Below, piece by piece: positions 1 to 40,296 of a stretch of 64,000 bases of DNA. The notes beneath the pieces are model-generated. The model was not told the origin of the DNA and searched no databases. It saw only the letters and a program-made list of their open reading frames with translations. The translations under genes and the position numbers were made by a program. Within the stretch, counting starts at the first letter, position 1. Every line of letters begins with the position of its first letter. This DNA comes from Pseudomonadota bacterium. GTDB taxonomy: Bacteria > Pseudomonadota > Alphaproteobacteria > Rhodobacterales > Rhodobacteraceae. The DNA lies in assembly GCA_020161615.1 (NCBI GenBank), contig JAIUPD010000010.1:147455-211454 (forward strand), written 5' to 3'.

Positions 1-298
1 GATCGTGGAACATCTGGACCTGCTGCGATTGCATGAGATCCGCGGCAACCTCGGCGGCGGGCGAGTGGCGGATGGCGTGTTCGAACTCGGGGATGCGGGT
101 CCAGTTGCAGTAATCGTCGAAAAACCGCCCGCCCTCGCCCGCCTTCAGGTTCTCGGCCGCATAGGGGCCGGGCTCGGCCATGTTGCGCTCGATCCCCTCG
201 CGGATCTGCTCCACATGGTCCTTGAACAGCCCCTTGATCAGAACGACCCCGTCGCGCTGGAAGGCGTCGATATCCGCTTTGGTCACCAGGTCATGCAT
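1..298 (-). CDS. PhyH-family non-heme Fe(II)/2-oxoglutarate dioxygenase (N-terminal part)
   Basis: This gene is cut by the left edge of the window, so only its first 99 residues are visible. They begin MHDLVTKADIDAFQRDGVVL, the typical opening of the phytanoyl-CoA dioxygenase (PhyH) family, where a helix precedes the 'DG(Y/V)-hydrophobic' strand and the catalytic double-stranded beta-helix follows. The His-x-Asp iron ligands would lie outside the window. The ATG is preceded by AAAGGAG about 7 nt upstream, which fixes the start. The gene is divergent from the LysR gene at 380, so that regulator probably controls it. Family members hydroxylate small molecules, often in secondary or xenobiotic metabolism; the substrate is unknown. 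Confidence 0.75.
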   Translation of the reverse strand, partial: MHDLVTKADIDAFQRDGVVLIKGLFKDHVEQIREGIERNMAEPGPYAAENLKAGEGGRFFDDYCNWTRIPEFEHAIRHSPAAEVAADLMQSQQVQMFHD

Positions 299-379
299 CG
301 CGTGTCTCCTTTGTCAGGGCAAGGTAGACGCGTCATAATTTAGTTTCCAATCATATATTTTCATAGAATAAATAGTTCC

Positions 380-1258: not shown

Positions 1259-1369
1259 CGCGCGGCCGAGGCCCCGGGACCCGAGGCCGGACCGAAGCCC
1301 TTCCCATTGCCGCCGCCGTCTGCAACCTTGGCGCCATGCGGTCGCCACGACCCCCGGACGAAAGCGAAG

Positions 1370-3482: not shown

Positions 3483-3584
3483 GTTGCCGCACTCCTTTTC
3501 ACTGATATTCTGGATACAGGAAACACCATTTCGGACAACTGTTCCGCGGACATCCGCAGCAAACACGTCCACAGGGGAAAATCC

Positions 3585-5108: not shown

Positions 5109-5124
5109 AGGGATCGACGGCACG

Positions 5125-16357: not shown

Positions 16358-17872
16358 ATGAAAGAGATCGTTCGCAGCGTGCGCAGCACGGTTCCCGCGG
16401 ATACGGACAACCCGTTCCTGAAAGGCCCCTTCGCGCCCAATATCAACGAATACAACGCCGATACCGGAACGCTGAAAGTGCGGGGCGAGATCCCCAGGGA
16501 CCTGCACGGCATCTATGTGCGCAACACCCATAACCAGGTGCACGATTCCATCGGCATCTATCACCCGTTCGACGGCGACGGGATGCTGCATGCGGTGCAT
16601 TTCCAGGATGGCAAGGCGCGCTACCGCAACCGCTTCATCGAGACCACCGGCTGGTGGGCAGAACAGGCGGCGGGCAAGTCGCTGTGGCCGGGGATCCTGA
16701 CGCCGCAGAAATACACGCGCCGGGGCTGGGGGGCCATCGGCGCGATGAAGGACAATGCCGGCACCGATGTGCATTGCCACGCCGGCAAGCTGATCGCAGT
16801 GATGAGCCAGGGCTCCGAGCCCTGGCGGCTGGATCCCGTCACGCTGGAAAACCTAGGGCCGGACGCGGCCTGGGCACATGAGGTGATGCCGATCGGCGTC
16901 TCGGCCCATTACAAGGTCGATGTCTACACGGGCGAGATGATGTTCTTCAACTTCTCGAACCAGTATCCTTACATGAGCTACGGCGTGGTGAACGCCGAGA
17001 ACAAGCTCATCCATTACACCCCCATCGAGCTGGACGGCCCGCGCTGGCCGCACGACCTGGGGGTCACGCAGAATTACTCGATCCTGCACGACCTGCCGTT
17101 CTTCTTCGACAAGGAAGCCCTGAAGCGCGGCGAGCGCAAGCTGACCTTCCATCGCGACGTGCCCGCGCGCTTCGGCGTGATCCCCCGGCATGGCACGAAT
17201 GCGGACGTGAAATGGTTTGAGGCCACGCCCTGCTACATCCTGCATCTGTCGAACTGCTACGAAGAGGGCGACTGGGTCATCATGGACGGCTGCATCTCGG
17301 TCGATCCGGCCAAGCCGCCGATCGGCAAGATCGACAATGTCTATGACAAGATCCTCGACCATCTGGACAAGCACCGCACCAAGACCCGGCTGCATCGCTG
17401 GAAATTCAATCTGAAGACCGGCGAAACGCGCGAGGAATTCCTGGACGACGAGGTGACGGAATTCCCCTTCTTCGCCAATTCGGTCTGCGGCTATCCCTAT
17501 CGCTACAGCTATGGCACGCTGTTCAAGCCGGGCGACTGGCTGTTCACCGGGATCAAGAAATACGACCTGCTGACCGGCACCCAGACCCGCTTCGAATACG
17601 GGCCCGAACGCTATGGCAGCGAGCCGCATGTCGCGCTCAGGCCCAACGCCAAGGCCGAGGATGACGGCTATATCATCACCATCGTCACCGACATGATCCG
17701 CAACATGTCGGAAACCCTGATCTTCGACGCCGCCGATATCGCCGCCGGGCCGATTGCCGCCATCGAGATGCCCGAGCGCATCTGCCAGGGCACCCATGCC
17801 TGCTGGGTCGAGGGGCATCGCATCCAGGGGGAAACCGGCTCGGTCCCCGGACCGGCGACGATGGAAGCCTGA
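16358..17872 (+). CDS. Carotenoid-oxygenase family dioxygenase (lignostilbene/carotenoid cleavage type)
   Basis: A 504-residue protein of the carotenoid cleavage oxygenase family, which uses a four-His Fe(II) centre to split a C=C bond with O2 into two carbonyls. The four His contexts are all present: SAHYKVDVYTGE, WPHDLGVTQNYSILHDLP, ILHLSNCYEEGDW and CQGTHACWVEG close to the C terminus. Bacterial members cleave stilbenes, isoeugenol or apocarotenoids. No signal peptide is seen. The PadR regulators and the aldehyde dehydrogenase upstream favour a phenolic olefin giving an aromatic aldehyde. A hydrolase gene follows after 22 nt. Confidence 0.9.
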   Translation: MKEIVRSVRSTVPADTDNPFLKGPFAPNINEYNADTGTLKVRGEIPRDLHGIYVRNTHNQVHDSIGIYHPFDGDGMLHAVHFQDGKARYRNRFIETTGWWAEQAAGKSLWPGILTPQKYTRRGWGAIGAMKDNAGTDVHCHAGKLIAVMSQGSEPWRLDPVTLENLGPDAAWAHEVMPIGVSAHYKVDVYTGEMMFFNFSNQYPYMSYGVVNAENKLIHYTPIELDGPRWPHDLGVTQNYSILHDLPFFFDKEALKRGERKLTFHRDVPARFGVIPRHGTNADVKWFEATPCYILHLSNCYEEGDWVIMDGCISVDPAKPPIGKIDNVYDKILDHLDKHRTKTRLHRWKFNLKTGETREEFLDDEVTEFPFFANSVCGYPYRYSYGTLFKPGDWLFTGIKKYDLLTGTQTRFEYGPERYGSEPHVALRPNAKAEDDGYIITIVTDMIRNMSETLIFDAADIAAGPIAAIEMPERICQGTHACWVEGHRIQGETGSVPGPATMEA

Positions 17873-17894
17873 GCTCCGAACGAAAGGAAACCCC

Positions 17895-18704
17895 ATGACC
17901 AGCCTTCCCGTCTACCGGACCCGCGGGTCCGGCCCCACCACGGTTTTCCTGCTGCACGGCGCCTATGGCGACGGACGCTATTTTGACGATCTCGCCAACA
18001 GCCTTGCGGTGGCGGGCTATCGCGTCGTCGATTGGGACGCGCCCGGCTACGGCGACAGCCCGCGGGTCGAGCCCGCCACCATCGAGGCCTTCGCCGATGC
18101 GGCGCAAGCGATGATCCGCGCGGAAGCCAGCGCAACCAACGTTGTTCTGGGTCATTCCATGGGCGCGCTGATCGGCCCGCGGCTGACCAACATGGAGGAT
18201 CGGGTGAACGGCCTGATCCTCTCGGCCGGCTCGATGGGCATTCCCAACCGCTCGCCCGAGGACCGGGCCCGGTTCCTGGAAGAACGCCTGACGCCGCTTG
18301 AGCGCGGCATGAGCGTGCAGGATTACGCGCGGCCGCTGATCACCCACATGATGGCACCCGGGGCCAGCGGCCCGCTGGTCGAGCGGGTGTTCGAGGTGGT
18401 GCTGTCGATGCGGACCGAGACCTTCCGCACCTCGCTGAACGCGCTGACCCTCTATGACGGGCGGGCGGCGCTGGAAGCCCTGACCAAACCCACGCTGATG
18501 ATCGCCGGCGAGCATGACCCGGCCTGTCCGGCCGAGGGGATGCGCCTGATGCACGAGGCCGCGCCGCATAGCGAGTTCGAGATCCTGCCGGGGGTCGGGC
18601 ATTACGGCTTCGCCGAACGGCCCGAGGCCTACAAGGCGCTGGTCCTCGGCTGGTTGGCCCGAACCTTTCCGAGCCAGGCCCGACAGGACCAGGACCGGTC
18701 CTGA
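17895..18704 (+). CDS. Alpha/beta hydrolase, meta-cleavage-hydrolase-like
   Basis: A 269-residue alpha/beta hydrolase. The oxyanion motif is LLHGAYGDGRYF, the nucleophile elbow is LGHSMGALIGP (Ser near residue 92), the acid is the Asp of IAGEHDPACPAEG and the His is in LPGVGHYGFAERPE. AAAGGAAA precedes the ATG at 17895. It follows the oxygenase gene by 22 nt and ends the operon before a bidirectional hairpin. It could hydrolyse an ester or lactone formed in the pathway. The overall pattern resembles MhpC/haloperoxidase-like hydrolases, but the substrate is not deducible. Confidence 0.85.
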   Translation: MTSLPVYRTRGSGPTTVFLLHGAYGDGRYFDDLANSLAVAGYRVVDWDAPGYGDSPRVEPATIEAFADAAQAMIRAEASATNVVLGHSMGALIGPRLTNMEDRVNGLILSAGSMGIPNRSPEDRARFLEERLTPLERGMSVQDYARPLITHMMAPGASGPLVERVFEVVLSMRTETFRTSLNALTLYDGRAALEALTKPTLMIAGEHDPACPAEGMRLMHEAAPHSEFEILPGVGHYGFAERPEAYKALVLGWLARTFPSQARQDQDRS

Positions 18705-18746: not shown

Positions 18747-19448
18747 CTAGGATTTCCAGTCCAGCAGGGCGGGCGAGGCGATGGAGAGTGCCTTGTCCGA
18801 CGGCTCCAACCCGCGCAGCATGACTTCGATCTGCGCAAACAGACGCCGCATGGCGCCCCGGATGTCGGGAATGTCAGCCCAGATGTAGTTGCGATAGGAT
18901 TCGATGATCAACGCCTGCGCCATCGACGCCATCGACTCCGGGTCGAAACTTGCCCGCAGCTCGCCCGTCTCGCCTGCTTGCCTGAAGCGCTGCGCGATCG
19001 CGCCCGTTGTCCCGGAATAGATCTCGCGGAACCGGGTCGATTGCTCGGATCGGTCATAATTGTTCAGATGGCCCAAGGCCGCGCGCGCGATCACGAGGTC
19101 ATCGGTCAGCCGGACCAGATGGTCCAGCGCGATGTTCATCAGATACTCCATGATCGAGATATCGGCCTCGGCCAGTTCCTGCACGTCGCGGGTCGCGTCC
19201 TCCAACACGTCGTTGAACAGCATGAACAGCAGGTCCCGCTTCGAATTGGCGAACAGGAACAGCGTGCCTTGGGCGACATCGGCCATATGGGCGATCTCGC
19301 GTACGGTGGTTTCCTCGAACCCCTTGGACATGAAGAGCGCGCGCGAGGCCTCGCGGATGCGACGCTGGCGATCCAGCTTGGCCTTTCCCGGACGCGCGGG
19401 TTCGGCGGCGGACCGCGACGAGGAACGATTGCGGGGCGTCTTGCTCAC
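18747..19448 (-). CDS. TetR-family transcriptional regulator
   Basis: A 233-residue TetR/AcrR protein with a basic N-terminal tail (MSKTPRNRSSSRSAAEP), then the DNA-binding domain at about residues 28-75 (ASRALFMSKGFEETTVREIA, AQGTLFLFANSKRDLLFMLF). The C-terminal ligand domain is helical and unremarkable. It lies 70 nt upstream of the ATPase gene's 3' end and is transcribed in the same direction as the sugar importer operon, so it may be its last gene or have its own promoter. It is the best candidate for binding the ATGAGC/GCTCAT palindromes at 23760 and 23873, because symmetric sites of about 14-20 bp are usual for TetR proteins. Confidence 0.9.
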   Translation of the reverse strand: MSKTPRNRSSSRSAAEPARPGKAKLDRQRRIREASRALFMSKGFEETTVREIAHMADVAQGTLFLFANSKRDLLFMLFNDVLEDATRDVQELAEADISIMEYLMNIALDHLVRLTDDLVIARAALGHLNNYDRSEQSTRFREIYSGTTGAIAQRFRQAGETGELRASFDPESMASMAQALIIESYRNYIWADIPDIRGAMRRLFAQIEVMLRGLEPSDKALSIASPALLDWKS

Positions 19449-19518
19449 GGCGTCATCCGTCTTGAAGTCGTCAGGATGATCTAAGCGAATTCACCCGACA
19501 ACGGAATAGCGTCGGTTC

Positions 19519-20694
19519 TCAGCGCAGGGCGGCACCATCGGATGCCCTGAAAAAATGCAGGCGGCGGGGATCGAGATGCAGCGCCACACCGGGGCCGTCG
19601 GGCACCGCGGTATCGATGCCCAGCCGGGCGATCAGGGGCGCGCGATGGGCGGCCGCCACCATGCCGAGGTCGGTCAGGAAATCCGCATCCACCGGCTGCC
19701 CGCCGCCGGTCATTGGCGTGTCGGCGCCGATGGTCATGTGGACCAGTTTCTCGGGCGGCAGTTCTTCGATCATGCGCATCTCTGCCGCCAGGCCGGGCGT
19801 GCCGGGCGGCGCGAAGGACAGGTGCTCGGGCCGGATCCCGACCACGATGCGGTGGCCGGACTCCGCCCGAAGGGCGGCGGGAAGCGGGGCGCCGGGATCG
19901 AGCCGCAGGACGGCGCCATCGGTCAGCAACTCGGGCCCGGTCTCGGTAAGCCGGAACTCGGCGCGGAACAGGTTCATCGCCGGCGAGCCGACGAAGGCCG
20001 CAACGAACAGGTTGGTCGGCTGTTCGTAAAGCTCGCGCGGTGTGCCGACCTGCTGCAGCAACCCGCCGCGAAGGATGGCGATGCGATGCCCCATCGTCAT
20101 CGCCTCGGTCTGATCGTGGGTGACATAGAGCGTGGTCACGCCCTGCTGCTTCTGCAGGCCAATGATTTCGGCCCGCATCTGGTTGCGCAGCTTGGCGTCG
20201 AGGTTCGACAGCGGTTCGTCCATCAGGAAGATCTGCGGATCGCGGACCAGCGCCCGGCCCATGGCCACCCGCTGCCGCTGCCCGCCGGACAGCGCCTTGG
20301 GCCGGCGATCCAGATATTCCGTCAGCCCCAGGGTCTGCGCGGCCGCGGCGACACGCCGCGCGATCTCGTCCTTCGAGGCGCCGCGGCTGGCGAGGGGGAA
20401 GGCGATGTTCTCGGCTACGGTCATATGCGGATAGAGCGCATAGTTCTGGAACACCATCGCCACGTCGCGGTCACGGGCAGAGAGGCCATTGACGACCTTG
20501 CCGCCGATACGCAATTCCCCCTCGGTGATCGGCTCCAGACCGGCGGTCATGCGCAGCGCCGTGCTCTTGCCGCAGCCCGAGGGGCCGACGACGACCATGA
20601 ACTCGCCATCCTCGATGGTGAAACTGAGGTCGCGCACGGCGTAAGCGCCGTTACCATAGCGTTTGCCGACGCCGTCGAACTGAATGGTGGACAT
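19519..20694 (-). CDS. Sugar ABC importer ATPase, MalK/UgpC type
   Basis: A 391-residue ATPase with Walker A GPSGCGKST, the LSGGQRQRVAMGRAL signature, Walker B IFLMDEPLSNLDAKLR and the switch His in LYVTHDQTEA. A C-terminal TOBE-type regulatory region (about 240-391) is typical of CUT1 importers. The start at 20694 (MSTIQFDGVGKRYGNGAYAV) matches the family; a longer upstream frame is low-complexity Ser/Arg and unlikely. It lies 13 nt after the MalG-type permease gene in a four-gene operon MalE-F-G-K. Confidence 0.93.
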   Translation of the reverse strand: MSTIQFDGVGKRYGNGAYAVRDLSFTIEDGEFMVVVGPSGCGKSTALRMTAGLEPITEGELRIGGKVVNGLSARDRDVAMVFQNYALYPHMTVAENIAFPLASRGASKDEIARRVAAAAQTLGLTEYLDRRPKALSGGQRQRVAMGRALVRDPQIFLMDEPLSNLDAKLRNQMRAEIIGLQKQQGVTTLYVTHDQTEAMTMGHRIAILRGGLLQQVGTPRELYEQPTNLFVAAFVGSPAMNLFRAEFRLTETGPELLTDGAVLRLDPGAPLPAALRAESGHRIVVGIRPEHLSFAPPGTPGLAAEMRMIEELPPEKLVHMTIGADTPMTGGGQPVDADFLTDLGMVAAAHRAPLIARLGIDTAVPDGPGVALHLDPRRLHFFRASDGAALR

Positions 20695-20707
20695 GGTTCT
20701 GGTCGCT

Positions 20708-21541
20708 TTACTTGATGCCGCCCGTGAAGCCCTTGATGAGCTGTTTCTGGGCGAGGAGATAGAAGGCAAGGATCGGCACGACAGAGACGAAGACCGCCGC
20801 GAAGACGAGGTTCCAGCGGGCCGAGAATTCGCCGACGAAGCCATAGACGGCGACGGGCAAGGTCTGGGCCGGGCTACCGGACAGAAAGATCAGCTGGATG
20901 AAGAAATCGTTCCACACGACCATGCCGACCATGACGGCAACGGTGCCGGTGACCGGGGCCAGCAACGGGAAGATCACCTTGAGGAAGATCCGGCCCCGGC
21001 TGGCGCCGTCGACTTCGGCGGCTTCCTCGTAATCGGCAGGCAGGGTGCGCACGAAGCCGGAGTACAGAAACACCGACATCGGCGTCATCAGCCCCGAATA
21101 AAGGACGATCAGGCCCAGTTGATTTCCGACAAGGCCGATCTGCCGCATCACCGAATAGAGCGGCACGACCGACAGCTGGTGGGGCAGGATGATGCCGATG
21201 ACGAAGAAGAAGAACAGAAGCGTCCCCATGCGCCGGCCGTTGCGGGCGATCACATAGGCGCTGGCCGAGCCGAGGGCGATCACCGCCACGACCGACCCTA
21301 TGGTCACGATCAGGCTGTTGAGCATGGCCTGGCCCAGGCTCACCCCCATCGTGCCGCGCCAAGCCTCGGCATAATTGGCAAAGGCCAATTGGTCGGGAAA
21401 GCCCACGGGATCGGCAAAGATCTCGGACATGGGCTTCAGCGAGACGATGGCGAGGTAATAGAAGGGTACACACCACAGCAGCGCCAGAGCGAGGGCGCCG
21501 AGTTCGCGGCCGAACGTGTTCAGGGCGGAGGGGCGGTTCAT
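20708..21541 (-). CDS. Sugar ABC importer permease, MalG type
   Basis: A 277-residue permease with six membrane helices and the EAA loop YEEAAEVDGASRGRIFLKVIFPLL, which contacts the ATPase. Its start overlaps the stop of the MalF-type gene in an ATGA. This is the CarQ/MalG half of a CUT1-type importer for oligosaccharides or glycosides. Ligand specificity cannot be read from the permease. Confidence 0.93.
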   Translation of the reverse strand: MNRPSALNTFGRELGALALALLWCVPFYYLAIVSLKPMSEIFADPVGFPDQLAFANYAEAWRGTMGVSLGQAMLNSLIVTIGSVVAVIALGSASAYVIARNGRRMGTLLFFFFVIGIILPHQLSVVPLYSVMRQIGLVGNQLGLIVLYSGLMTPMSVFLYSGFVRTLPADYEEAAEVDGASRGRIFLKVIFPLLAPVTGTVAVMVGMVVWNDFFIQLIFLSGSPAQTLPVAVYGFVGEFSARWNLVFAAVFVSVVPILAFYLLAQKQLIKGFTGGIK

Positions 21542-22413
21542 ATCCGGTCCTCCCGGGCACGCAGGACAAGCAGCTGGATCACCGAGACGACCAGCACCAG
21601 CGCGGTCAGCACCAGCGCGAAGGCGGCGCCATAACCGAAGCGGCCAAAGGCGAAGGTCTGTTTGAAGATCTGCGTGGCCAGGGTTTCGGTCGCGTAGCCG
21701 GGACCGCCGAAGGTCAGGGCGATCACCTGATCGAAGGTGCGCAAGCCGAAGATCGTCGGCAGGGCGATGGACACCGTCGCGGCGGGCGCCAGCAACGGGA
21801 AGGTGATCTTGCGAAAACGCCGCCAGGGCGAGGCCCCGTCGATCTCGGCAGCCTCGATCAGGTCGGTGGGGATACCCTGCAGCCCGGCAAGGTAGAAGGC
21901 CATGCACAGCCCCGAGAATTGCCAGACCATGACCACCAGGACCGACCACAGGGCGGTGTCGGGATCGCCCAGCCAGACCCGGGTCGCGCCCTCGAGCCCC
22001 AAGGCCTCGAGCCCGGCATTCAGCGGACCGTTCACCGAGAAGATGAACTTCCAGACATACGAGACGGCAAGCGGGCTCATCACCACCGGCGCGAAAAAGA
22101 CCATGCGCAGGATGTTCTGGGCCCGCAGCGCGCCATTCAGCATCAGTGCCAGGCCAAGACCGATCAGATTGGACAGGGTGACATAGAAGAAGGTCAGCAG
22201 CAGCGTGTTGGTCAGCGCGGCCCGGGCCTCGGCACTGGTCAGCACCTGCCGGAAATTGGCCAGCCCCACGAAATTCGGCGTGCTCAGCCCGTCCCAATCG
22301 GTGAAGGCGTACCAGCCTCCGGCGACGAAAGCCCCGTAATGGAACAGCAGCATGATGACGATGGCGGGGGCCGCCCAGGCGAGCGGCGCACGGGCCGCGG
22401 TCGGAGAGTACAT
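21538..22413 (-). CDS. Sugar ABC importer permease, MalF type
   Basis: A 291-residue permease with six membrane helices. The N terminus (PLAWAAPAIVIMLLFHYGAF) and the EAA loop LIEAAEIDGASPWRRFRKITFPLL are characteristic of MalF/UgpA subunits. I chose the start at 22413 because it gives a short N-terminal tail before the first helix; the Shine-Dalgarno (AAAGA) is weak. It lies 82 nt after the binding-protein gene and overlaps malG-type by 4 nt. Confidence 0.9.
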   Translation of the reverse strand: MYSPTAARAPLAWAAPAIVIMLLFHYGAFVAGGWYAFTDWDGLSTPNFVGLANFRQVLTSAEARAALTNTLLLTFFYVTLSNLIGLGLALMLNGALRAQNILRMVFFAPVVMSPLAVSYVWKFIFSVNGPLNAGLEALGLEGATRVWLGDPDTALWSVLVVMVWQFSGLCMAFYLAGLQGIPTDLIEAAEIDGASPWRRFRKITFPLLAPAATVSIALPTIFGLRTFDQVIALTFGGPGYATETLATQIFKQTFAFGRFGYGAAFALVLTALVLVVSVIQLLVLRAREDRI

Positions 22414-22495
22414 CAGCGGATCTTTCGGCTGCCGACAGGGCGCGGCGCCCACCGGACCGGTCCCAGGCCGGGGCCGGGGCGAGCGCCGCGCAGGA

Positions 22496-23737
22496 TCATT
22501 CCCCGGCGTCCCAGGCGGCATCGAGCGCCGCCAGAACCTCGTCGATCGTGGCCTGCCCGGTGACGATCTGGGTGGCGCCGCGGCTGAGGGTATCCAGGAC
22601 TTCCAGCCGCGTCCACCCGGTGTGGGGCAGTCCGACGATTTCGCCCGCGCTGTAATAGGGCGCAAGGCGCTCGATCATCGCGGGAAAGGTGCCCTCGGCG
22701 ACATCGGCCCGCGCGGTTCCGCCGGCGATGGCGGTGAAGGCGCGCTGCTGCTCGGGCTCGGCCAGCCAGTCGATAAAGCCGAGCGCCGCGTCGAGATTGG
22801 GCGATCCCGCCGCGACCGACAGGGCGTCATTGTAGAACCCCAGCGCCACGGTGTTCTCGCCCGAGGGCCAGGGGCCGACGGCCAGCGACAGGGTCGGGTT
22901 CATCCGCAGCACGGCACCGGCGAGCGTGACCGGACCCACGTTGGTCGCCCCCTGTTCACCGGCCATCGCGGCGAAAAGGTCGGGCACGCTGGCCGCTTCG
23001 AAACCGCGCTGGAAGCAGCCCTCCTCGGCCATGCGGGCAAAGGTGGCGAAGGTCTCGGCCCAGCCCGGGGTCGTGGCGAAACTGACCTCGCCTGCGCGGC
23101 GGCGGGCGTTCCAGTCCGGCGTCTCGGCATAGACCTTCGCGGCGGCGATGGTCTCAACGATGTAATAGGGGAAGGCCCCCGAGGCCGACGAGAAGCTGAC
23201 GCCCTGCCCGGCCGCAGTGGCGCAGGCGGCGAAGAAGTCCTCTTCGGTTTCGGGATAGGCGATGCCCAGCCGTTCCATCATCGCGGTGTTGTGGATCAGC
23301 CCGACCGAGGTCAGCGACAGCGGCAAGCCATAGAGCGCTTCGCCGTCATAATAGACGTCGCGCGCGCTCTCGGGGAAGTCGGCCACCCAGGCACCGGCGG
23401 ACAGGTCGGCAAGATGCCCCGCCTGCGCCAGCGGCATCAGCGATTCCAGCCGTCCGTAACCCGCGTTGGTATAGATCAGGTCGGGGGCCGCGCCGGACTG
23501 GATCTGCGTGACCACCGCCTGCCCATAGCTGTCGCCCGAGGGGAATTTCTGCACCGTGAAGGTCACGCCTCCGGTTTCGGCGGCATAGGTCTGGGCCAGC
23601 TGTTCCAGTGCGTCGCCCACGGCGCTGGCGGGCGCCACAAGCCGCAGGGTCACATCCTGCGCGAGGGCGGGCAGCGCTGTCGAGGCGATCAGAAGGGCCG
23701 CGCCGGAAAGGCGCAGGGCAAGGCTGTCGGAACGCAT
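22496..23737 (-). CDS. Sugar/glycoside ABC importer periplasmic binding protein (SBP family 1)
   Basis: A 413-residue secreted binding protein. The signal peptide ends near ALPALAQ. The SBP_bac_1 fold is seen in PDLIYTNAGYGRLESLMPLAQAG, EALYGLPLSLTSVGLIHNT and EPEQQRAFTAIAGGTA. The ATG at 23737 has a weak Shine-Dalgarno and fits the signal peptide; a longer frame to 23788 would run through the operator and is unlikely. It is divergent from the DUF6379/TIM-barrel/GMC operon, so the imported ligand is probably the substrate of those enzymes. Confidence 0.9.
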   Translation of the reverse strand: MRSDSLALRLSGAALLIASTALPALAQDVTLRLVAPASAVGDALEQLAQTYAAETGGVTFTVQKFPSGDSYGQAVVTQIQSGAAPDLIYTNAGYGRLESLMPLAQAGHLADLSAGAWVADFPESARDVYYDGEALYGLPLSLTSVGLIHNTAMMERLGIAYPETEEDFFAACATAAGQGVSFSSASGAFPYYIVETIAAAKVYAETPDWNARRRAGEVSFATTPGWAETFATFARMAEEGCFQRGFEAASVPDLFAAMAGEQGATNVGPVTLAGAVLRMNPTLSLAVGPWPSGENTVALGFYNDALSVAAGSPNLDAALGFIDWLAEPEQQRAFTAIAGGTARADVAEGTFPAMIERLAPYYSAGEIVGLPHTGWTRLEVLDTLSRGATQIVTGQATIDEVLAALDAAWDAGE

Positions 23738-23759
23738 GGAGGAACCTCTCTGTTCATAT

Positions 23760-23773
23760 ATGAGCGTACTCAT
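23760..23773. promoter_or_regulatory. Operator O1, ATGAGC-type palindrome
   Basis: ATGAG-CGTA-CTCAT, a dyad with perfect 5-bp arms. It is a second copy of the core of the larger palindrome at 23873. It lies just downstream of the predicted transcription start of the binding-protein operon and 22 nt before that gene's start codon, where a bound protein would block elongation. Confidence 0.65.
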
Positions 23774-23786
23774 TTTTTGTGATTCC

Positions 23787-23816
23787 ATGCTAGAGACATT
23801 CCAATCTTTCTGTCAA
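23787..23816 (-). promoter_or_regulatory. Predicted sigma-70 promoter of the sugar importer operon
   Basis: On the minus strand a consensus TTGACA (23816-23811) is followed after 18 bp by TAGCAT (23792-23787). Transcription would start near 23780, placing operator O1 at about +8 to +21. Confidence 0.5.
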
Positions 23817-23872
23817 TCATGAAGAAAGGCCAGAAATATATGTTGTAGACCGCCTGCCCTCCAGCGTCACAT

Positions 23873-23892
23873 TAAATGAGCATGCTCATTTA
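23873..23892. promoter_or_regulatory. Operator O2, perfect 20-bp palindrome
   Basis: TAAATGAGCA followed by its exact reverse complement TGCTCATTTA. It shares the ATGAG/CTCAT core with O1, 113 bp away. It ends 6 bp upstream of a TTGACA box for the plus-strand operon. The symmetry and size suit a TetR dimer or pair of dimers; the TetR gene at 18747 is the nearest candidate and the IclR gene at 27051 the alternative. Confidence 0.75.
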
Positions 23893-23898
23893 TGACCG

Positions 23899-23927
23899 TT
23901 GACAGGCGGCAGCATGGAAAATATTGA
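23899..23927 (+). promoter_or_regulatory. Predicted promoter of the DUF6379/TIM-barrel/GMC operon
   Basis: A consensus TTGACA (23899-23904) is followed after 17 bp by TATTGA (23922-23927), a poor -10. It lies immediately downstream of operator O2 and 55 nt before the first start codon. The -10 is weak, so an activator may be needed. Confidence 0.4.
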
Positions 23928-23981
23928 ACTTTGCTCAGGGGATGCGTCGCATCCCTCGCCGCTGCCAGGGAATTGTGCCTC

Positions 23982-24359
23982 ATGTTGTCGGACCTGCTGA
24001 TCGAGCCAGACTCGCTTGTGGCCACGACCACCGGGCTCTCCCTGGGCCTCCGCCTGCCGTGGTACCAATCCCTCCCGCTGTCGACGGTGCGACTCAGCGA
24101 GGTCGCTGTTGATGGCACCCCACTCTCGCCGGCCGGGCTGTCCTTCACGCTGAACGGCCAGACACGCCCCCTGACCGTGATGCCCGGTCTGACGGGCGAA
24201 TACTGGTTCGTGACGGATACCCTGCACCTGCATCTGCCGCTCTCCGGGCCAAGGCGGGGCACCGACTATCTGTGCCGCCTGCGCCTTCAGCTGTTTCCGC
24301 CCTATGCCGAAACGCTGCGCCGCGACAATGTCGGCGCGCTGAGGATGCGCGCCCGATGA
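23982..24359 (+). CDS. DUF6379 protein, C-glycoside deglycosidase beta-subunit-like
   Basis: A 125-residue, all-beta-looking cytoplasmic protein without signal peptide. It matches my recollection of DUF6379, the small subunit of C-glycoside deglycosidases: an N-terminal strand block GLSLGLRLPWYQSLPLSTVRL, then VAVDGTPLSPAGLSFTLNG, and a mid-protein ELT/GLTGEYWFVTD strand pair. In characterised enzymes this subunit pairs with a TIM-barrel subunit, and that partner is encoded next, in an ATGA overlap. I chose the ATG at 23982; AGGGAA lies about 11 nt upstream. The overlap with the alpha-like gene suggests coupled 1:1 synthesis. Family assignment is by memory of the pattern and needs a profile search. 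Confidence 0.7.
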   Translation: MLSDLLIEPDSLVATTTGLSLGLRLPWYQSLPLSTVRLSEVAVDGTPLSPAGLSFTLNGQTRPLTVMPGLTGEYWFVTDTLHLHLPLSGPRRGTDYLCRLRLQLFPPYAETLRRDNVGALRMRAR

Positions 24360-25378
24360 GCGGGGGGCACGCCATCCGGCTGGGCGTCTCGCTCTACAGC
24401 TTCACCAACGAATTTCTTGGCCGCAGCCACGACCTGCCGGCCCTGCTGCGCGAAACCGCAGCGCGCGGTCTGGGGCCGGGGGTCGAGGCCGTGGGGTTCC
24501 AGAGCTTTCGCAGTTTCCCCGATGTCACCGAGGCCGAGGCCGGCGCCTTTCGCGATGCCCTGGCCGAAGCCGGGCTGCGGCCGACCTGTCTGGGGATCAC
24601 GGCCGATCGCTTCCTTCAGCCGGGGCAAGCGATTGCGGATTCCGAGCTGATCGAGTTCCACGCCCGGCAGATGCGTTCGGCCCACCGGCTGGGCTTTCCA
24701 CTTGTCCGCTTTCAACATGCCGCGACCCCGGCCGTCATCCGCGCGCTGGTGCCGCTGGCTGAATCGTTGGAGCTTCGGATGGGACTGGAAGTGCATGCGC
24801 CGCTGTTCCTCGACCATCCGGTGATCCTGGCCTACCGCGAGATGTTCGAGGCCGTCGGCAGCCCGTTGCTGGGGTTCATCCCCGATTTCGGTGCCGCGGC
24901 CCGTGCGGTGCCCGAGGTTCAGACCGCCTATTTCCGCGACGTATTGGGCGCGCCCTCACGCGCCGTCGATCGGGCCCTTTTCCTGTGGCATGACGACAAC
25001 TTGCAGCCGCTCGACCGGTTGACCGACTTCGCCGCGTTCTGCGCCGCCGAGGGCATCGACGACCGCTTTCGGGACGAGATCGCCTTGATCTTCGGCATCA
25101 TCGGCCGCGGCGATCCCGCCCGCTGGTCCGAGATCATGCCGCAGGTCTTCCACCTGCATGCGAAATTCTACGACTGCGATCCGCAAGACGGGTCCGATCC
25201 GGCCATCGATACCGCGGCCAATCTGGCGCCCTTCCTGGCGGCAGGATGGCAGGGCGACCTGTCCAGCGAATGGGAGGGGCATGTGACCTCCCGCGGGGAC
25301 GGGTTTGCGATGGTCGAGGCACAGCAACGATACCTTGCTACTCTTTTGAACCCCCCGGCCCGCAAGGCAGAGGTCTGA
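24356..25378 (+). CDS. TIM-barrel (xylose-isomerase-like) protein, C-glycoside deglycosidase alpha-subunit-like
   Basis: A 340-residue protein of the sugar phosphate isomerase/epimerase (AP endonuclease 2) superfamily. The N terminus LGVSLYSFTNEFLGR and the block VEAVGFQSFRSFPDVTE resemble the large subunit of C-glycoside deglycosidases. Four residues could form the divalent-metal site: Glu145 (LGLEVHAP), Asp177 (FIPDFG), His267 (HLHAKF) and Glu304 (SSEWEG); His147 is a candidate acid/base. In known enzymes this subunit cleaves the C-C bond between a 3-keto sugar and an aromatic ring. It overlaps the small-subunit gene by 4 nt and is followed after 1 nt by a GMC oxidoreductase, which could make the 3-keto sugar. 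A plain epimerase is the alternative. Confidence 0.72.
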   Translation: MSGGHAIRLGVSLYSFTNEFLGRSHDLPALLRETAARGLGPGVEAVGFQSFRSFPDVTEAEAGAFRDALAEAGLRPTCLGITADRFLQPGQAIADSELIEFHARQMRSAHRLGFPLVRFQHAATPAVIRALVPLAESLELRMGLEVHAPLFLDHPVILAYREMFEAVGSPLLGFIPDFGAAARAVPEVQTAYFRDVLGAPSRAVDRALFLWHDDNLQPLDRLTDFAAFCAAEGIDDRFRDEIALIFGIIGRGDPARWSEIMPQVFHLHAKFYDCDPQDGSDPAIDTAANLAPFLAAGWQGDLSSEWEGHVTSRGDGFAMVEAQQRYLATLLNPPARKAEV

Positions 25379-25379
25379 C

Positions 25380-26996
25380 ATGACCGAATTCGACTACATC
25401 ATCGTCGGCGCAGGCTCATCGGGCTGCGTTCTGGCCAACAGATTGAGCGAGGATCCCCGCCTGCGTGTGCTTCTGCTGGAAGCGGGCGGGGCAAACCGGC
25501 ACCCGTTCATCGCCATGCCGGCAGGTTTCATGAAGCTCGCCGGCGATCCGCGCTATTACTGGAAGTTCCCGGTTCGCGACCAGCTCGACCGCGGGCCCGA
25601 GACGTGGACCTATGGACGCGGCCTTGGCGGGTCCAGCGCGGTGAACGGCATGTGGTATCTTCGGGGGATGCCGCGCGACTACGATGGCTGGCAGGCGATG
25701 GGGCTTGCGGAATGGAGCTGGGCCAGCATGGCCCCCCATTTCACCTGGATGGAAAGCTACCTCGAACCCGGGGCGGACCCGAGCCGGGGACGCACGGGCC
25801 CCTTGCAGATCACGCGCTCACGCTATCGCTCACCGGTCACGGCCGCCACCATCGAGGCCGCCAGGGACCTGGGCCTGCCCGAGCTTGAGGACATCAATAC
25901 CCCGAACGCCGAGGGCATCGGCTGGACCCAACACACGATTGACCGCAAGGGTCGCCGGGCCTCGGCCCACGCTGCCTTCATCAAGCCACTCAGGCGTCCC
26001 AACCTGGTGGTGCGCACCGGCGCGCCGGTTGCCCGCATCCTGATGCGCGACGGCCGGGCGACGAGCGTCGAAATCGTCACGCCGCAGGGCCGCGAGACGA
26101 TCTCTGCGCGGGGCGAGGTGATCCTGTCGGCCGGCGTCTATCAGTCGCCGAAGCTCTTGCAGCTTTCGGGGATCGGCCCCGCCGCGCTGCTGACCCGCCA
26201 CGGTATCGAAGTGCGTCGCGATCTGCCCGCCGTCGGCCAGAACCTGAGCGATCACCAGATGGTCGCGCTGACCTATGATCTGAAGAACGACCCCGGCCTC
26301 AACCGCGAATACACCGGCTGGCGCCTCTATCGGAACGCGCTGACCTACTTTGCCGGACAGCAAGGTTTGCTGGCGCGGGTCGGGGTGCCGCTGACCGTCC
26401 TACAATCCTCGGACGGCGAAAGCGACTGGCCCGACATGCAGCTGGGGATCGGGCCGTTCGCCATGCGCTCGACCCGCGAACGCAAGCTGGAGCCGGGGCG
26501 CGGCCCGATCACCGCCGATCCAGGGATCATGTTTGCGGGCTTTCACCTGCGGCCGCGCAGCCGGGGCTCTGTGGCCATCGCCTCGGCCGATCCGATGGCG
26601 ATGCCCGAGGTTGATGCCGGTTGGTGGCGCGACGAATTCGACCGGCGGAAGGCGGTCGAACTGGTCCGGCTGCTGCGCCGCTTCGCCGCTGCCCCGGCGC
26701 TGTCCCGCTACGTCGGGAACGAGCGGATTCCGGGTTCCGGCGTGCAGACCGACGCGGCCATCATCGACGAGCTGACGTGGATGATGAGCCCCGGCTTGCA
26801 CGGCACCGGCACCTGCGCCATGGGCACCGATCCCGCGACCTCGGTTACCGATGGGCGCTGCCGGGTGCACGGGGTGACGGGCCTGCGCGTCGTGGATTGT
26901 TCCGCCATGCCGACGACCGTCTCGGGGAATACCAATGGCCCCGCGATGGCCTTCGGCGCACGCGCGGCCGACCTGATCCTCGCGGATCGCCAATAG
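25380..26996 (+). CDS. GMC-family FAD-dependent oxidoreductase
   Basis: A 538-residue GMC flavoprotein. It has the FAD-binding GAGSSG at residues 10-15, the GMC signature 1 region (YGRGLGGSSAVNGMWYLRGMPRDYD) and signature 2 (GVYQSPKLLQLSGIGPA). The C-terminal catalytic pair is His in LHGTGTCAMG and Asn in TVSGNTNGPAMAFG. Overall it looks like the choline-dehydrogenase/alcohol-dehydrogenase branch, not the pyranose-oxidase branch that contains the known C-glycoside 3-oxidases. It lies 1 nt after the alpha-like gene. In this operon it could oxidise the sugar C3-OH before C-C cleavage; that role is inferred. Confidence 0.88.
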   Translation: MTEFDYIIVGAGSSGCVLANRLSEDPRLRVLLLEAGGANRHPFIAMPAGFMKLAGDPRYYWKFPVRDQLDRGPETWTYGRGLGGSSAVNGMWYLRGMPRDYDGWQAMGLAEWSWASMAPHFTWMESYLEPGADPSRGRTGPLQITRSRYRSPVTAATIEAARDLGLPELEDINTPNAEGIGWTQHTIDRKGRRASAHAAFIKPLRRPNLVVRTGAPVARILMRDGRATSVEIVTPQGRETISARGEVILSAGVYQSPKLLQLSGIGPAALLTRHGIEVRRDLPAVGQNLSDHQMVALTYDLKNDPGLNREYTGWRLYRNALTYFAGQQGLLARVGVPLTVLQSSDGESDWPDMQLGIGPFAMRSTRERKLEPGRGPITADPGIMFAGFHLRPRSRGSVAIASADPMAMPEVDAGWWRDEFDRRKAVELVRLLRRFAAAPALSRYVGNERIPGSGVQTDAAIIDELTWMMSPGLHGTGTCAMGTDPATSVTDGRCRVHGVTGLRVVDCSAMPTTVSGNTNGPAMAFGARAADLILADRQ

Positions 26997-27050
26997 TCGG
27001 GACGGCGGCAGACCAAACCGAGGCACCGGGCACATGGCGCCAACCGGAAA

Positions 27051-27803
27051 TCAGAGCGCCGTTACGCGACGGACCTGTTCCAGGGTCTGGCGCAATTCGG
27101 CCTCGACAGTATCGCGCATCTGCAGGAAGCGGGGCGTCGGCACGGGAACGGAAATCGCGTGGATCTCGCCGTTCCGGTCGCGGAAGGCCCCGCCAAGGGC
27201 CGAAATGCCGTTCGTGTGCTCGTTGGCATCCTCGGCGATGCCTCGCTCGCGCACCTTGCCCAGCATCGCGGCGAAGGCGGACCAGTCGCCGGGCTGGCGC
27301 GCCCGTTTCCACTCTGCCTCGACCAGGGCGCGGGCCTCGGCTTCTGGCAGAAGTGCCAGCGCGGCGCGGCCATTCGCGCTGGTGGTCAGGGGAAAGACAT
27401 CGCCCACGGCCGAGACGGTCCTGAGCCGGTGCGTTCCCGGGACCTGATCGAGGAAGATCATCCCTGCCCCGCGCAGCACTGACAGATCCGCCGTCTCGCC
27501 CAGGCGCCGGGACAGTTCCGACAGATGCAGACGGCATTCCTCGACCACGTTGTAGCGCGTGGCCTCGGAAAGCGCCGTGATCTCGGGGCCAAGGCGGATG
27601 GATCCACCGGACGAGGTGGCAATGACCAGCCGCTCGGCCTGAAGGGCGCCCACGATGCGCTGGACCGTCGAGCGGGGCAGGTCAACGCGTTCGGCAATCT
27701 GGCCGAGGCTCATCCCCTCGGTATTGTCGCGCAGGACGCGCAGGATGGCAGCCGCGCGCGCGATCACCTGAATGCCCGAGCGCCCCTCGTCCTTGTCCAC
27801 CAT
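27051..27803 (-). CDS. IclR-family transcriptional regulator
   Basis: A 250-residue IclR protein with an N-terminal winged helix (IQVIARAAAILRVLRD, MSLGQIAERVDLPRSTVQRIVGAL, about residues 10-65) and a GAF-like effector domain with LPLTTSANGRAAL and the C-terminal AALGGAFRDR-like block. GAGGGG lies 6 nt before the ATG at 27803; an in-frame ATG two codons upstream (27809) is also possible. It is convergent with the GMC gene and divergent from the cyclase gene at 27984, so it may control the catabolic run to its right. IclR proteins commonly sense aromatic acids or sugar acids. Confidence 0.9.
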   Translation of the reverse strand: MVDKDEGRSGIQVIARAAAILRVLRDNTEGMSLGQIAERVDLPRSTVQRIVGALQAERLVIATSSGGSIRLGPEITALSEATRYNVVEECRLHLSELSRRLGETADLSVLRGAGMIFLDQVPGTHRLRTVSAVGDVFPLTTSANGRAALALLPEAEARALVEAEWKRARQPGDWSAFAAMLGKVRERGIAEDANEHTNGISALGGAFRDRNGEIHAISVPVPTPRFLQMRDTVEAELRQTLEQVRRVTAL

Positions 27804-27983
27804 GCCCATCCCCTCGTCTCTGCCCGCCCAGCAATACAGCAGAAACTAGATGATCTGCAATGCGATACAAGTGTCCCAGAATCTTGTTGACGCGGCGCGA
27901 CTCGCATGTGTACCGTAATTCGAACCGAACGCACCATATTGCGGTGCAGCATCGGCGACACGCATCGGGAGGGAGGAGCCGAG

Positions 27984-32287: not shown

Positions 32288-32950
32288 ATGCGCTTTGAAG
32301 ACCGTAACGAGATGCTCAAACCCGGCTATCTGCCGCTGGAATCGGGCATCATCCGCTATGACGACGGCTCGGTGACCATCGCGGCCCTGACCCGGATGCC
32401 GCATTGCCGCGCCAAGATGGTGCATTGGTGGTTCGGCTGGCTGGGTGGCACCGACCAGTACAAGCTGTGGCACCCCGTCGACCATATTTTCAGCGACTGG
32501 GAAGACCGGGGCAACGCCGGCAATTATTACGGCGCGAAGCATCTGGTCCATGAGACGCTGGGCGGCGGTGGCGCGGTGCACAAGCTCCGCATCCATTTCC
32601 GCGACCCGCACGAGGTATTCGACGCCGCCCGCTACGATCAGGTCGACGGCCATGCGATCTGCGCCCGTCCGGGCAGCCTGGAGCGTCCGATCAACCTGGG
32701 GCACATGACGCATTTCGTGCGCAACACCGATTATGGTTGCGAGATGCGCACAAGGTTCTGGCTGGGCGATGTGCACCATCAGGACCTGGCGACCAAGTTG
32801 CCCGACGAGGTGGTGCAGGGGATCCGCCGCGAGGCGCTGACCGATGATTTCTGCACCCGGCTGCACCGCCATGCCATCGAAGAAATGGGCTATCTGGCCG
32901 ATCTCCTGCCGGTTCTGTACCGGCAGGTCACGCAGGACGCGAGCTTCTGA
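32288..32950 (+). CDS. PhlG-like (2,4-diacetylphloroglucinol/phloretin hydrolase family) C-C hydrolase
   Basis: A 220-residue protein matching the DAPG-hydrolase family pattern: PHCRAKMVHWWFGWL, TDQYKLWHPVDHIFSDWE, HETLGGGGAVHKLRIHFRDP and MTHFVRNTDYGCEMRTRFWLG. Characterised members (PhlG of pseudomonads, phloretin hydrolase of gut bacteria) are Zn enzymes with a Bet v 1-like fold that cleave the aryl-acyl C-C bond of acylphloroglucinols. His and Glu residues in HxxDH and HETLGG are candidate metal ligands. It lies between the two binding-protein genes of the importer, so its substrate is probably the imported compound. Whether the compound is an acylphloroglucinol is inferred. Confidence 0.8.
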   Translation: MRFEDRNEMLKPGYLPLESGIIRYDDGSVTIAALTRMPHCRAKMVHWWFGWLGGTDQYKLWHPVDHIFSDWEDRGNAGNYYGAKHLVHETLGGGGAVHKLRIHFRDPHEVFDAARYDQVDGHAICARPGSLERPINLGHMTHFVRNTDYGCEMRTRFWLGDVHHQDLATKLPDEVVQGIRREALTDDFCTRLHRHAIEEMGYLADLLPVLYRQVTQDASF

Positions 32951-38604: not shown

Positions 38605-40296
38605 TCACGCCCGGATTGCGTCCGGGCGCGCTTCGGTGCCGGTCTTAAGGCCCAGCTTGCGCAACCGGTAATCAAGCTGCGCCCTGCTGAGACCGAGATC
38701 GCGCGCCGCGGCCGAGACATTGCCCTTGGCCGCCGCCAGCGCGCTGGTATAGGCGTCGATCTCCATCTGCTGCAGGGTGCGCCCCTCGACCTTGCCGTCC
38801 GACGTGCTGCGCACGATGCTGCCGCTGGCATGCGCGCGCTCGATGAACTCGGGCAGTTCTTCCAGCCCGGAAAACAGATGCGAGATTTCCAGCTCGCCCG
38901 CCGGCTCGGCAAAGATTACCCCGCGTTCCAGCATGTTCGACAATTCCCGAACATTGCCGGGATAATCGTAGCGCAGCAGCAGGTCCATCGCGGCCCCGCT
39001 GATCTTGCGCAGGGGGCGGCCGTGGCGGCGGGCGTGGCGCTGTAGGAAATGCTCGATCAGCATGGGCAGATCGTCGCGCCGCTCGCGCAGGGGCGGCAGG
39101 GCGACGGGCAAGAGCGAGAGACGGTAGAAGAGATCGGCGCGGAAGGCGCCCGACTTCACCGCCTCGCGCGGCTGGCCCGAACAGGCCGAGACGATGCGGA
39201 AACCAGCCCGTGCCCCCTCGCGCGCCTGCAGACGCAGCGCCAGATGCCCCTGCAGCGGGCGCGAGAGCGAAAGCACGTCATTGAGAAACAGCGTCCCGCC
39301 CGCGGCACGGTCGATCTGCGCATCGAGCCGGGCGATGGCCGCCGGCGCGTCGTCATTGTCGAACATCGAGCAATTGACCGCGATGAAGGGCCCGCCCGGA
39401 TGCCGCCCGATCTCGTGCAGGCGGCGGGCAAACAGCTCCTTGCCTGTGCCCGGCTCGCCCAGCAACATCACCGGCTCGTCCGAGCCACTGACCCGCTCGA
39501 TCAGCCGCCGCGCCCGCATGATCGCGGCCGAGCGCCCCTGGATCATCGACACCCCGTCCTCGACCGGTTTCGGCAGCTCGACCGGCGGTGTCCAGGGCTT
39601 GCCCTTCACCCGTGGCTCGGTCAGGCCGAATTCCTCCAGTTCGGGCACGTCGTCGCCCCAGGCCTCGGCATTGCGCCCGATGATCACGCAGCGCTCGGCC
39701 CCCATGCCAGTGCATTCCATCTCGCGGAAGATCACCGGATAGCCGAAAAGCCGCGTGGTATAGCCCGAGGGCACGCCGATCAGCATCCAGCAGACCGGGC
39801 AGTCGCACACCCCGAAATGCGTCAGATGCTCGACCGCTTCGGTGCTGTCATGCCAGTAGAATTCGCCATGGTAATGGTTGCGCGAGACGTCGAATTCGAA
39901 GCGCCGCGTCGTGACCTTGACGAAACCCTCCATCGTGTGGATGCGCGGCCCTGCGGCCAAAGCGGCGGTCAGGTCCTGCTGCTGGAAGCGCTTGGCGATG
40001 ACATCGGCCAGATGGATGCCCTGATACCAGCCCACGCAGCGAAAGATGCGGCGGGTCTGGTCGATGCCCATCGCCTCGATCATTTCCCGGCGCAACTGAC
40101 CCAGCGAAGAGGTCTGCAGCAGGACCATCCGGTCCTCGTTCAGCCAGATCCGCCCGTCGCCAAGCGCGAATTGCAACGCGCCCGCGAGGTCAGACAGGGT
40201 TGGTGGCGCGCCCTCGTCCAGCAGCTTTGAATCGCCCCGCGACAACAAGCGCGGCGCCCGGCGCGAGGCTTCGGTGAGCGAGATTCTCTTGGCCAT
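38605..40296 (-). CDS. XylR/DmpR-like bacterial enhancer-binding protein without GAFTGA
   Basis: A 563-residue regulator: XylR_N effector domain (about 25-125), V4R domain (about 140-210, with Cys-rich CDCPVC and MGAERC typical of aromatic-sensing activators), AAA+ domain (about 250-460) and C-terminal Fis-type HTH (NVSAAARDLGLSRAQLDYRL). Walker A is GEPGTGKE. The stretch between VNC and GGTLFL is about 12 residues shorter than normal and lacks the GAFTGA sigma-54 contact loop; Walker B is FLNDV instead of the usual FLDE. It may therefore act with sigma-70. It is divergent from the aldehyde dehydrogenase at 40501 and convergent with the BKACE gene, so it probably senses an aromatic pathway intermediate. 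Confidence 0.88.
   Translation of the reverse strand: MAKRISLTEASRRAPRLLSRGDSKLLDEGAPPTLSDLAGALQFALGDGRIWLNEDRMVLLQTSSLGQLRREMIEAMGIDQTRRIFRCVGWYQGIHLADVIAKRFQQQDLTAALAAGPRIHTMEGFVKVTTRRFEFDVSRNHYHGEFYWHDSTEAVEHLTHFGVCDCPVCWMLIGVPSGYTTRLFGYPVIFREMECTGMGAERCVIIGRNAEAWGDDVPELEEFGLTEPRVKGKPWTPPVELPKPVEDGVSMIQGRSAAIMRARRLIERVSGSDEPVMLLGEPGTGKELFARRLHEIGRHPGGPFIAVNCSMFDNDDAPAAIARLDAQIDRAAGGTLFLNDVLSLSRPLQGHLALRLQAREGARAGFRIVSACSGQPREAVKSGAFRADLFYRLSLLPVALPPLRERRDDLPMLIEHFLQRHARRHGRPLRKISGAAMDLLLRYDYPGNVRELSNMLERGVIFAEPAGELEISHLFSGLEELPEFIERAHASGSIVRSTSDGKVEGRTLQQMEIDAYTSALAAAKGNVSAAARDLGLSRAQLDYRLRKLGLKTGTEARPDAIRA

Follow-up and report, generated by a model that had tools for sequence, protein, structure and literature searches.

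How might an alphaproteobacterium take up and cleave a C-glycoside, and which enzyme would prepare the sugar for cleavage? These questions are raised by a locus in a stretch of 64,000 nucleotides, here called the window, of a Rhodobacteraceae genome (assembly GCA_020161615.1, contig JAIUPD010000010.1, forward-strand positions 147,455 to 211,454). The C-C bond of C-glycosides resists ordinary hydrolysis, and little is known about the fate of these compounds beyond gut and actinobacterial soil strains. The locus joins genes for a predicted C-glycoside deglycosidase (CGD) and for a GMC oxidoreductase that uses flavin adenine dinucleotide (FAD), all divergent from genes for an ABC importer. According to our preferred reading, which we hold with a probability of about 0.7, a C-glycoside, probably a plant-type sugar conjugate, is imported, oxidised at the sugar C3 by the GMC protein, cleaved by the CGD and finished by a hydratase and a Gfo-type oxidoreductase, and the locus is horizontally mobile; the activities are predicted. 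The CGD system would be of a known kind, joined by a conserved candidate C3-oxidoreductase that apparently has not been described.

All genes were found where the initial annotation had placed them, in two divergent transcription units, the cleavage operon having the tight spacing that it described: beta and alpha share 4 bases, and 1 base separates the alpha stop (25378) from the GMC start (25380). The two permease genes (21538-22413 and 20708-21541) share 4 bases as well. Coordinates and family scans also bore out the divergent MalEFGK-type importer. The order TetR-ATPase-permease-permease-solute-binding protein // beta-alpha-GMC is kept in Mesobacterium pallidum (L017), Devosia enhydra (L019) and Rhizobium sp. 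RU36D (L020), while Agrobacterium vitis (L018) has TetR // beta-alpha-GMC and no importer in the stretch examined. With this gene set found again elsewhere, the arrangement is not due to chance. The features are as follows.

18747-19448, minus strand: TetR-family regulator (PF00440, 42 bits; identity 76% in L017, 43% in L018, 34% in L019, 37% in L020)
19519-20694, minus strand: MalK/UgpC-type ABC ATPase (ABC_tran and OB_MalK; PRK11650, 428.7 bits, cut-off 432; syntenic in L017, L019 and L020)
20708-21541, minus strand: MalG-type ABC permease (BPD_transp_1, 60 bits; identity 89%, 66% and 70% in L017, L019 and L020)
21538-22413, minus strand: MalF-type ABC permease (BPD_transp_1, 71 bits; identity 86%, 66% and 63% in L017, L019 and L020)
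22496-23737, minus strand: extracellular solute-binding protein, family 1, sugar type (SBP_bac_1, 88.8 bits; identity 79%, 44% and 39% in L017, L019 and L020)
23761-23772, no strand: palindrome-like site TGAGCGTACTCA, candidate TetR operator ahead of the importer operon
23877-23888, no strand: perfect palindrome TGAGCATGCTCA, candidate TetR operator ahead of the cleavage operon
23982-24359, plus strand: predicted CGD beta subunit (DUF6379/CGDB)
24356-25378, plus strand: predicted CGD alpha subunit, a metal-dependent TIM barrel
25380-26996, plus strand: FAD GMC oxidoreductase of the choline-dehydrogenase branch (profiles, tree), proposed glycoside C3-oxidoreductase (CGD linkage)
27051-27809, minus strand: IclR-family regulator (IclR_C, 117 bits), a neighbour probably outside the system

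The small protein had been likened to DUF6379, and it does match Pfam PF19906 (CGDB, "C-glycoside deglycosidase beta subunit") at 39.7 bits, above the cut-off of 27.6. Its six best solved-chain matches are all CGD betas, from E 2.3e-08 (AgCGD2 beta) to 0.15. The TIM-barrel protein gave 18 PDB matches at E <=10, eight of them CGD alphas and the other ten P450 chains (E >=0.89); the closest chain was 7dnm_A, the AgCGD2 alpha (E 1.8e-53). An AlphaFold2 model of this protein (mean pLDDT 93), compared to the PDB by Foldseek, returned CGD chains as all of its top 16 matches (TM 0.92); a xylose-isomerase-domain protein came next (TM 0.63 by query length), and epimerases after it. The TIM-barrel protein thus groups with CGDs ahead of epimerases.

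In AgCGD2, the published metal ligands are Glu147, Asp179, His269, Lys271 and Glu305, with His149 as base and an additional Glu307 (PMC8563793). By alignment, these pair with Glu145, Asp177, His268, Lys270, Glu305, His147 and Glu307 of the window alpha. The ligands first proposed were therefore right for Glu145 and Asp177 and off by one residue for the His and the last Glu, placed at 267 and 304, while Lys270 had been missed. All seven residues are kept, and they are invariant across a 21-row alignment in which two rows are one protein. As for the beta subunit, Tyr39 of the PuCGE beta was proposed to hold the aglycone oxyanion (PMC10628242), and alignments suggest that Tyr28 of the window beta probably corresponds to it. 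DgpB aligns to the window beta at equal length (29-94 to 18-83), a weak match (E 0.15), the aligned Tyr is present in the AgCGD2 beta, and all 13 betas that were aligned have the Tyr28 equivalent. From homology and modelling, the pair at 23982-24359 and 24356-25378 is predicted to be the beta and alpha subunits of a CGD.

We then considered the GMC protein, whose family scan gave GMC_oxred (Pfam). The proposed placement in the choline-dehydrogenase branch was upheld by profile scores, tree and fold search. The choline dehydrogenase subfamily PRK02106 scored 445 bits (under its cut-off of 605) and the pyranose oxidase model 33 bits, while the BetA choline dehydrogenase equivalog reached 366.5 bits against a cut-off of 732.1, so that the protein shares the branch and is not BetA. 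The best solved match by sequence was 8b7s, a chloramphenicol-inactivating oxidoreductase; for the model (pLDDT 89) the best fold match was 8rpg, an alcohol oxidase, followed by choline oxidase. His474 and Asn517 are invariant in the alignments. GMC relatives were found at E 1e-60 in 18 of 18 genomes of its own genus, none above 44% identity besides the protein itself, while GMCs adjoining CGDs in other genera are 54-76% identical to it. In a 385-genome sample of the class, the best score was 632 bits (one genome, 56%), after which scores fell to 438 (46%).

In a maximum-likelihood tree of 50 rows, 20 CGD-linked GMCs form one clade (98/90), and a protein of Novosphingobium resinovorum is sister to it (21 rows, 100/100). 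A further 25 alphaproteobacterial GMCs fall outside this group, and four pyranose-oxidase-type partners are far away on a long branch. The 50 rows were drawn from 103 extracted open reading frames, with sphingomonad near-duplicates, two doubled loci and the majority of the pyranose-oxidase-type rows omitted. Rows counted as not CGD-linked mostly have flanks of about 1.5 kb, too short to show a CGD, except L122 (16 kb, none found). By profile and tree, the GMC protein is predicted to belong to the choline-dehydrogenase branch, outside the pyranose-oxidase branch; pyranose oxidase was rejected as its identity (33 vs 445 bits, separate long branch). The G3DH type was rejected as well: matches to a Croceicoccus G3DH-type GMC are local (59 and 75 residues), GlycDH itself being outside this comparison, and a search of the window at E 1e-10 found no gluconate 2-dehydrogenase subunit 3-like partner.

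The proposed function of the GMC protein follows from linkage, which we counted in the best 80 of 366 relatives from genome contigs (37 alphaproteobacterial, 43 other), with thresholds of >400 bits for the window GMC type and >100 bits for the pyranose-oxidase type. Some of these loci are short, and L060 and L062 overlap on one contig. A beta match lies <=400 bases from alpha in 80/80 loci. The window GMC type is present in 34 of the 37 alphaproteobacterial loci vs 0/43 others, the pyranose-oxidase type in 0/37 vs 30/43, and no locus has both. The three alphaproteobacterial exceptions (L022, L040, L094) carry a G3DH-type GMC and a gluconate 2-dehydrogenase subunit 3-like gene; L040 ends 43-46 bases ahead of beta, so an upstream GMC cannot be judged there. 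G3DH-type GMCs were also found in four Burkholderiales loci. Every one of the 80 loci has at least one beta match with the Tyr28 equivalent, and some additional beta matches have Ile instead. Actinobacterial loci, including L066, L071, L075 and L096, have up to four CGD beta matches per 16-17 kb; Ile-bearing betas in such multi-beta loci possibly have a different substrate or function.

Members of the same GMC clade also lie 1-5 kb from CGD-like pairs in Sphingobium RAC03, Novosphingobium P6W and genome G464. Their alphas are 28-31% identical to the window alpha, and the RAC03 and G464 betas pass the CGDB cut-off. An alpha tree rooted on these three, built without 24 of the 80 scanned loci, shows them as distant, G464 being a very long branch. 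In G464, the very divergent CGD pair stands about 4 kb before the clade GMC (L120, 2233-9400), its beta about 19% identical to that of the window; elsewhere in this genome, a hydratase gene and a Gfo gene accompany another CGD pair (L121). Among plasmid records with a GMC relative at E 1e-130, an alpha relative is present in 9 of 10. We consider the linkage of GMC and CGD strong evidence that both would act in a common pathway and moderate evidence for the exact step, for which the GMC protein may be a conserved, apparently undescribed C3-oxidoreductase.

Known systems place these predictions in context. AgCGD2 (AgCarB2-C2) of Arthrobacter globiformis (PDB 7DNM, 7DNN; PMC8563793) shares with the window pair the alpha-beta make-up, the metal ligands, the base His, the second Glu and the TIM-barrel fold, with 33% identity in the fold comparison. 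It is actinobacterial, and in Actinomycetes loci we found the pyranose-oxidase-type GMC in 27/32 and the window type in 0/32 (A. globiformis is not among the names). CarABC of Microbacterium and PurABC of Paenarthrobacter share the two-step oxidation and cleavage by an FAD enzyme and a CGD (PMC8563793, PMC12724307), and CarA-type C-glycoside oxidases occupy the sequence space of pyranose oxidases (PMC10807413). The window GMC is set apart from CarA and PurA by way of one pyranose-oxidase-type partner (26% identity over 337 residues, a weak match), CarA and PurA themselves being outside the alignment. DgpABC of gut strain PUE has the CGD homologues DgpB and DgpC and uses DgpA, dependent on nicotinamide adenine dinucleotide (NAD), where the window has a flavoprotein (PMC12724307, PMC8563793). 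The Agrobacterium system GlycDH/AtOGE/AtHYD/Gfo shares the sequence of oxidation, elimination, hydration and reduction, and a hydratase orthologue is present in our source genome; its eliminase AtOGE is unrelated in sequence to the window CGD, and its GlycDH is expressed with a Tat-signal protein, whereas the window has no such small subunit (PMC10628242). Enzymes of the choline-dehydrogenase branch (BetA 9LQ0, choline oxidase 2JBV, 8B7S, 8RPG) have the fold and branch of the window GMC, with 29-37% identity in the fold comparison, and are named for other alcohols.

The initial annotation had held that the known sugar C3 oxidases come from the pyranose-oxidase branch. This is too narrow: two C3-oxidant routes are published for CGDs, DgpA and PurA/CarA (PMC12724307), the flavoenzyme GlycDH is a further published C3 oxidant (PMC10628242), and some CGD loci carry a G3DH-type GMC. 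In one paper, "choline dehydrogenase" is a database label on pyranose-oxidase-type seed sequences. Our literature search, mostly of open papers without supplements, recognised no CGD partner of the choline-dehydrogenase branch, and an earlier mention is possible. Sugars are oxidised at C2/C3 by fungal pyranose dehydrogenase, likewise not a member of the pyranose-oxidase branch; therefore, this chemistry would not be new to the GMC family beyond pyranose oxidases.

The substrate would pass through four steps. The ABC importer, judging from gene type and synteny, would carry the intact glycoside into the cytoplasm, and the GMC flavoprotein, judging from the conserved linkage, would turn the C3 hydroxyl of the sugar to a ketone, thus filling the slot held elsewhere by DgpA, pyranose-oxidase-type or GlycDH-type enzymes. 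The CGD, with its metal on Glu145, Asp177, His268, Lys270 and Glu305, would then remove the C2 proton by His147 as base and expel the aromatic ring as a resonance-stabilised carbanion, with help from the beta residue Tyr28, so that the aglycone and 2-hydroxy-3-keto-glucal would be the products; this chemistry is the mechanism proposed in print for homologues, and its residues are those aligned here. Finally, a hydratase and a Gfo-type oxidoreductase would convert the glucal to 3-keto-glucose and then to glucose.

Genes for this last step were not found in the window, neither a hydratase nor a 3-keto-sugar reductase; the locus had been called self-contained, which does not hold, and likely candidates are on another contig. 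RAC03 has, close to its GMC gene, a hydratase gene that matches 8ro4, a solved 2-hydroxy-3-keto-glucal hydratase that may be AtHYD. On contig C3 of the source genome there is an orthologue (607 bits to 8RO4 over 350 residues, the next solved match at 121 bits). After it come a Gfo/Idh/MocA gene, with 49% identity to its RAC03 counterpart, and genes of an ABC importer. The hydratase orthologue and Gfo gene fit the published four-step route by homology and may be used in this pathway. Hydratase homologues are common (310 plasmid records), making their presence weak evidence.

Is the locus mobile? Of 292 genomes searched in the order, the source genome was the only one with an alpha match at E 1e-20, and of 385 in the class three have one, the source genome counted; the class-wide searches scored <=5 candidates per genome for alpha and <=3 for GMC. 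Alpha relatives are present in 15 plasmid records, 12 of them from sphingomonads. As repB- and repC-like genes lie on the window's contig (C10, within 1-6000; at 1151-3507), the locus probably sits on a repABC-type replicon, plasmid or chromid. Considering all this, we lean, with some reserve, towards a broader proposal. Within the choline-dehydrogenase branch of the GMC family, one more class of glycoside C3-oxidoreductase would have evolved independently in alphaproteobacteria; it would work with CGDs, and two or three distant deglycosidase-like lineages would have recruited it. With the TetR-controlled importer, it would make up a C-glycoside utilisation module that is plasmid-borne and can be transferred. 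A conserved non-pyranose-oxidase GMC clade found with CGDs permits a specific and cheap test. If true, the proposal would give a function to these choline-dehydrogenase-like genes and possibly new catalysts for aglycone production.

Several observations weigh against these proposals. A G3DH-type GMC accompanies the window GMC type in 4/34 loci (L021, L032, L033, L047) and a G3DH small subunit in L025 and L029; because the G3DH-type GMC or small subunit shares the stretch in these six loci, the two GMC types may serve different steps. In a second alignment of 20 alphas, six of the seven catalytic and metal residues are invariant, while the ligand His268 is Gln in the RAC03 (L125, 7309-8325) and P6W (L126, 5522-6505) proteins, which may not be ordinary CGDs and so lend weaker support to the argument from several lineages. 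These Gln-bearing alphas adjoin betas that keep Tyr28, and a changed metal site or reaction is possible. The clade neighbour in N. resinovorum (49%) has a hydratase homologue and no CGD match in 21.6 kb; there (L127, 6149-11620) the GMC lies near this homologue and also near a TIM barrel resembling IolE, and the cluster is perhaps a variant for O-glycosides. The PF19906 match of the window beta spans 75 of 112 profile positions, and linkage alone leaves the oxidised position unproven.

C-glycosides had been taken as the substrate; this rests on inference, as a CGD of the same family cleaves 3-keto-O-glucosides too (PMC10628242). The system could thus serve mainly O-glycosides, by the same oxidation and beta-elimination, with C-C cleavage as a side ability. 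PuCGE cleaves 3-keto O- and C-glucosides alike (PMC10628242), and the RAC03 and P6W clusters with the same GMC clade include glycosyl hydrolases. We consider this unlikely, if worth serious attention: the window's two operons have no glycoside hydrolase, the beta subunit is kept, with Tyr28 as the probable counterpart of the residue tied to C-glycoside cleavage, and the O-glycoside eliminase of Agrobacterium is sequence-unrelated and without a second subunit (PMC10628242). As for the TIM barrel being an ordinary sugar epimerase and the small protein unrelated to it, alpha reached in Pfam the general AP_endonuc_2 family alone, under its cut-off, and the NCBIfam scan had no match for either protein. 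This we regard as extremely improbable, and rejected, considering that CGD chains take the top 16 places in the fold search and, apart from ten weak P450 chains, account for every sequence match (8), that beta exceeds the CGDB cut-off, and that the pair stands side by side in all 80 loci.

It is also conceivable that the GMC protein performs another oxidation, of an aryl or benzylic alcohol of the aglycone or of another sugar carbon, and that an unlinked NAD-dependent enzyme oxidises C3. The nearest solved chains, a chloramphenicol-inactivating GMC by sequence and alcohol and choline oxidases by fold, would suit such a role, as would the G3DH-type GMC alongside in some loci, and DgpA proves that NAD enzymes are capable of the step (PMC12724307). 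On the other side, the clade stays with CGDs over several alphaproteobacterial orders and near distant CGD-like pairs with differing neighbours, as expected if it acts on the common part, the sugar, and the window type never occurs with the pyranose-oxidase type among the 80 loci. A search of the source genome for these two other GMC types gave nothing of the pyranose-oxidase type at E 1e-10, with a query that recovers a 76% match from a Microbacterium genome, and no close G3DH-type GMC (best match 27% identity); it leaves room for NAD-dependent (Gfo/Idh) oxidants, a point against our proposal. On balance, a different oxidation seems quite unlikely, and we retain C3 oxidation of the sugar by the GMC protein.

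The gap between the two operons bears on their control. The TetR regulator probably represses both through TGAGCATGCTCA-like sites. A site with <=1 mismatch from TGAKCRTGMTCA is present in the divergent gap of all five loci (the window and L017-L020). Sites of this consensus number 7 against a shuffle mean of 0.07 (0/1000 shuffles as high), a circular test as the consensus comes from the same sequences. A fairer, consensus-free palindrome count gave 8 vs a mean of 2.4 (1/500 shuffles as high); the operator-like site makes up 4 of these 8, and L017 has none. Exact copies of TGAGCRTRCTCA number four in the 4.87 Mb genome: two at this locus, one between the repB-like and the repC-like gene, and one within a MatE gene. 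The two outside copies do not look like further TetR targets. A loose search of the window with 2 mismatches showed no enrichment (16 matches vs 14.5 expected). As for the importer elsewhere, MalFG-type permeases are present in 23/32 Actinomycetes loci.

Other genes of the window were considered as members. The IclR gene (27051-27809) was rejected, as none of 84 related loci holds a match to it at E 1e-8. At 32288-32950 lies a PhlG/phloretin-hydrolase-like gene (PF18089, 155 bits; phloretin hydrolase 5xey, E 2.4e-16), in a row with a cyclase, a short-chain dehydrogenase/reductase, a 3-hydroxyacyl-CoA dehydrogenase, two Peripla_BP_6 proteins, a branched-chain-type ABC importer and a beta-keto acid cleavage enzyme; by gene content, the row looks like one for catabolism of an acylated phenol. 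At 16358-18704, a protein of the RPE65/carotenoid-oxygenase family adjoins an alpha/beta hydrolase; its nearest NCBIfam models, under cut-off, are 8'-apo-carotenoid and lignostilbene dioxygenases. Both the phloretin-hydrolase-like and the RPE65-type gene were rejected as aglycone steps, not being beside CGDs in the 84 loci except for one 28% RPE65 match in L015. Finally, the window encodes two sigma-54 activators (38605-40296 and 49252-51000), the first of the XylR/aromatic-catabolism type.

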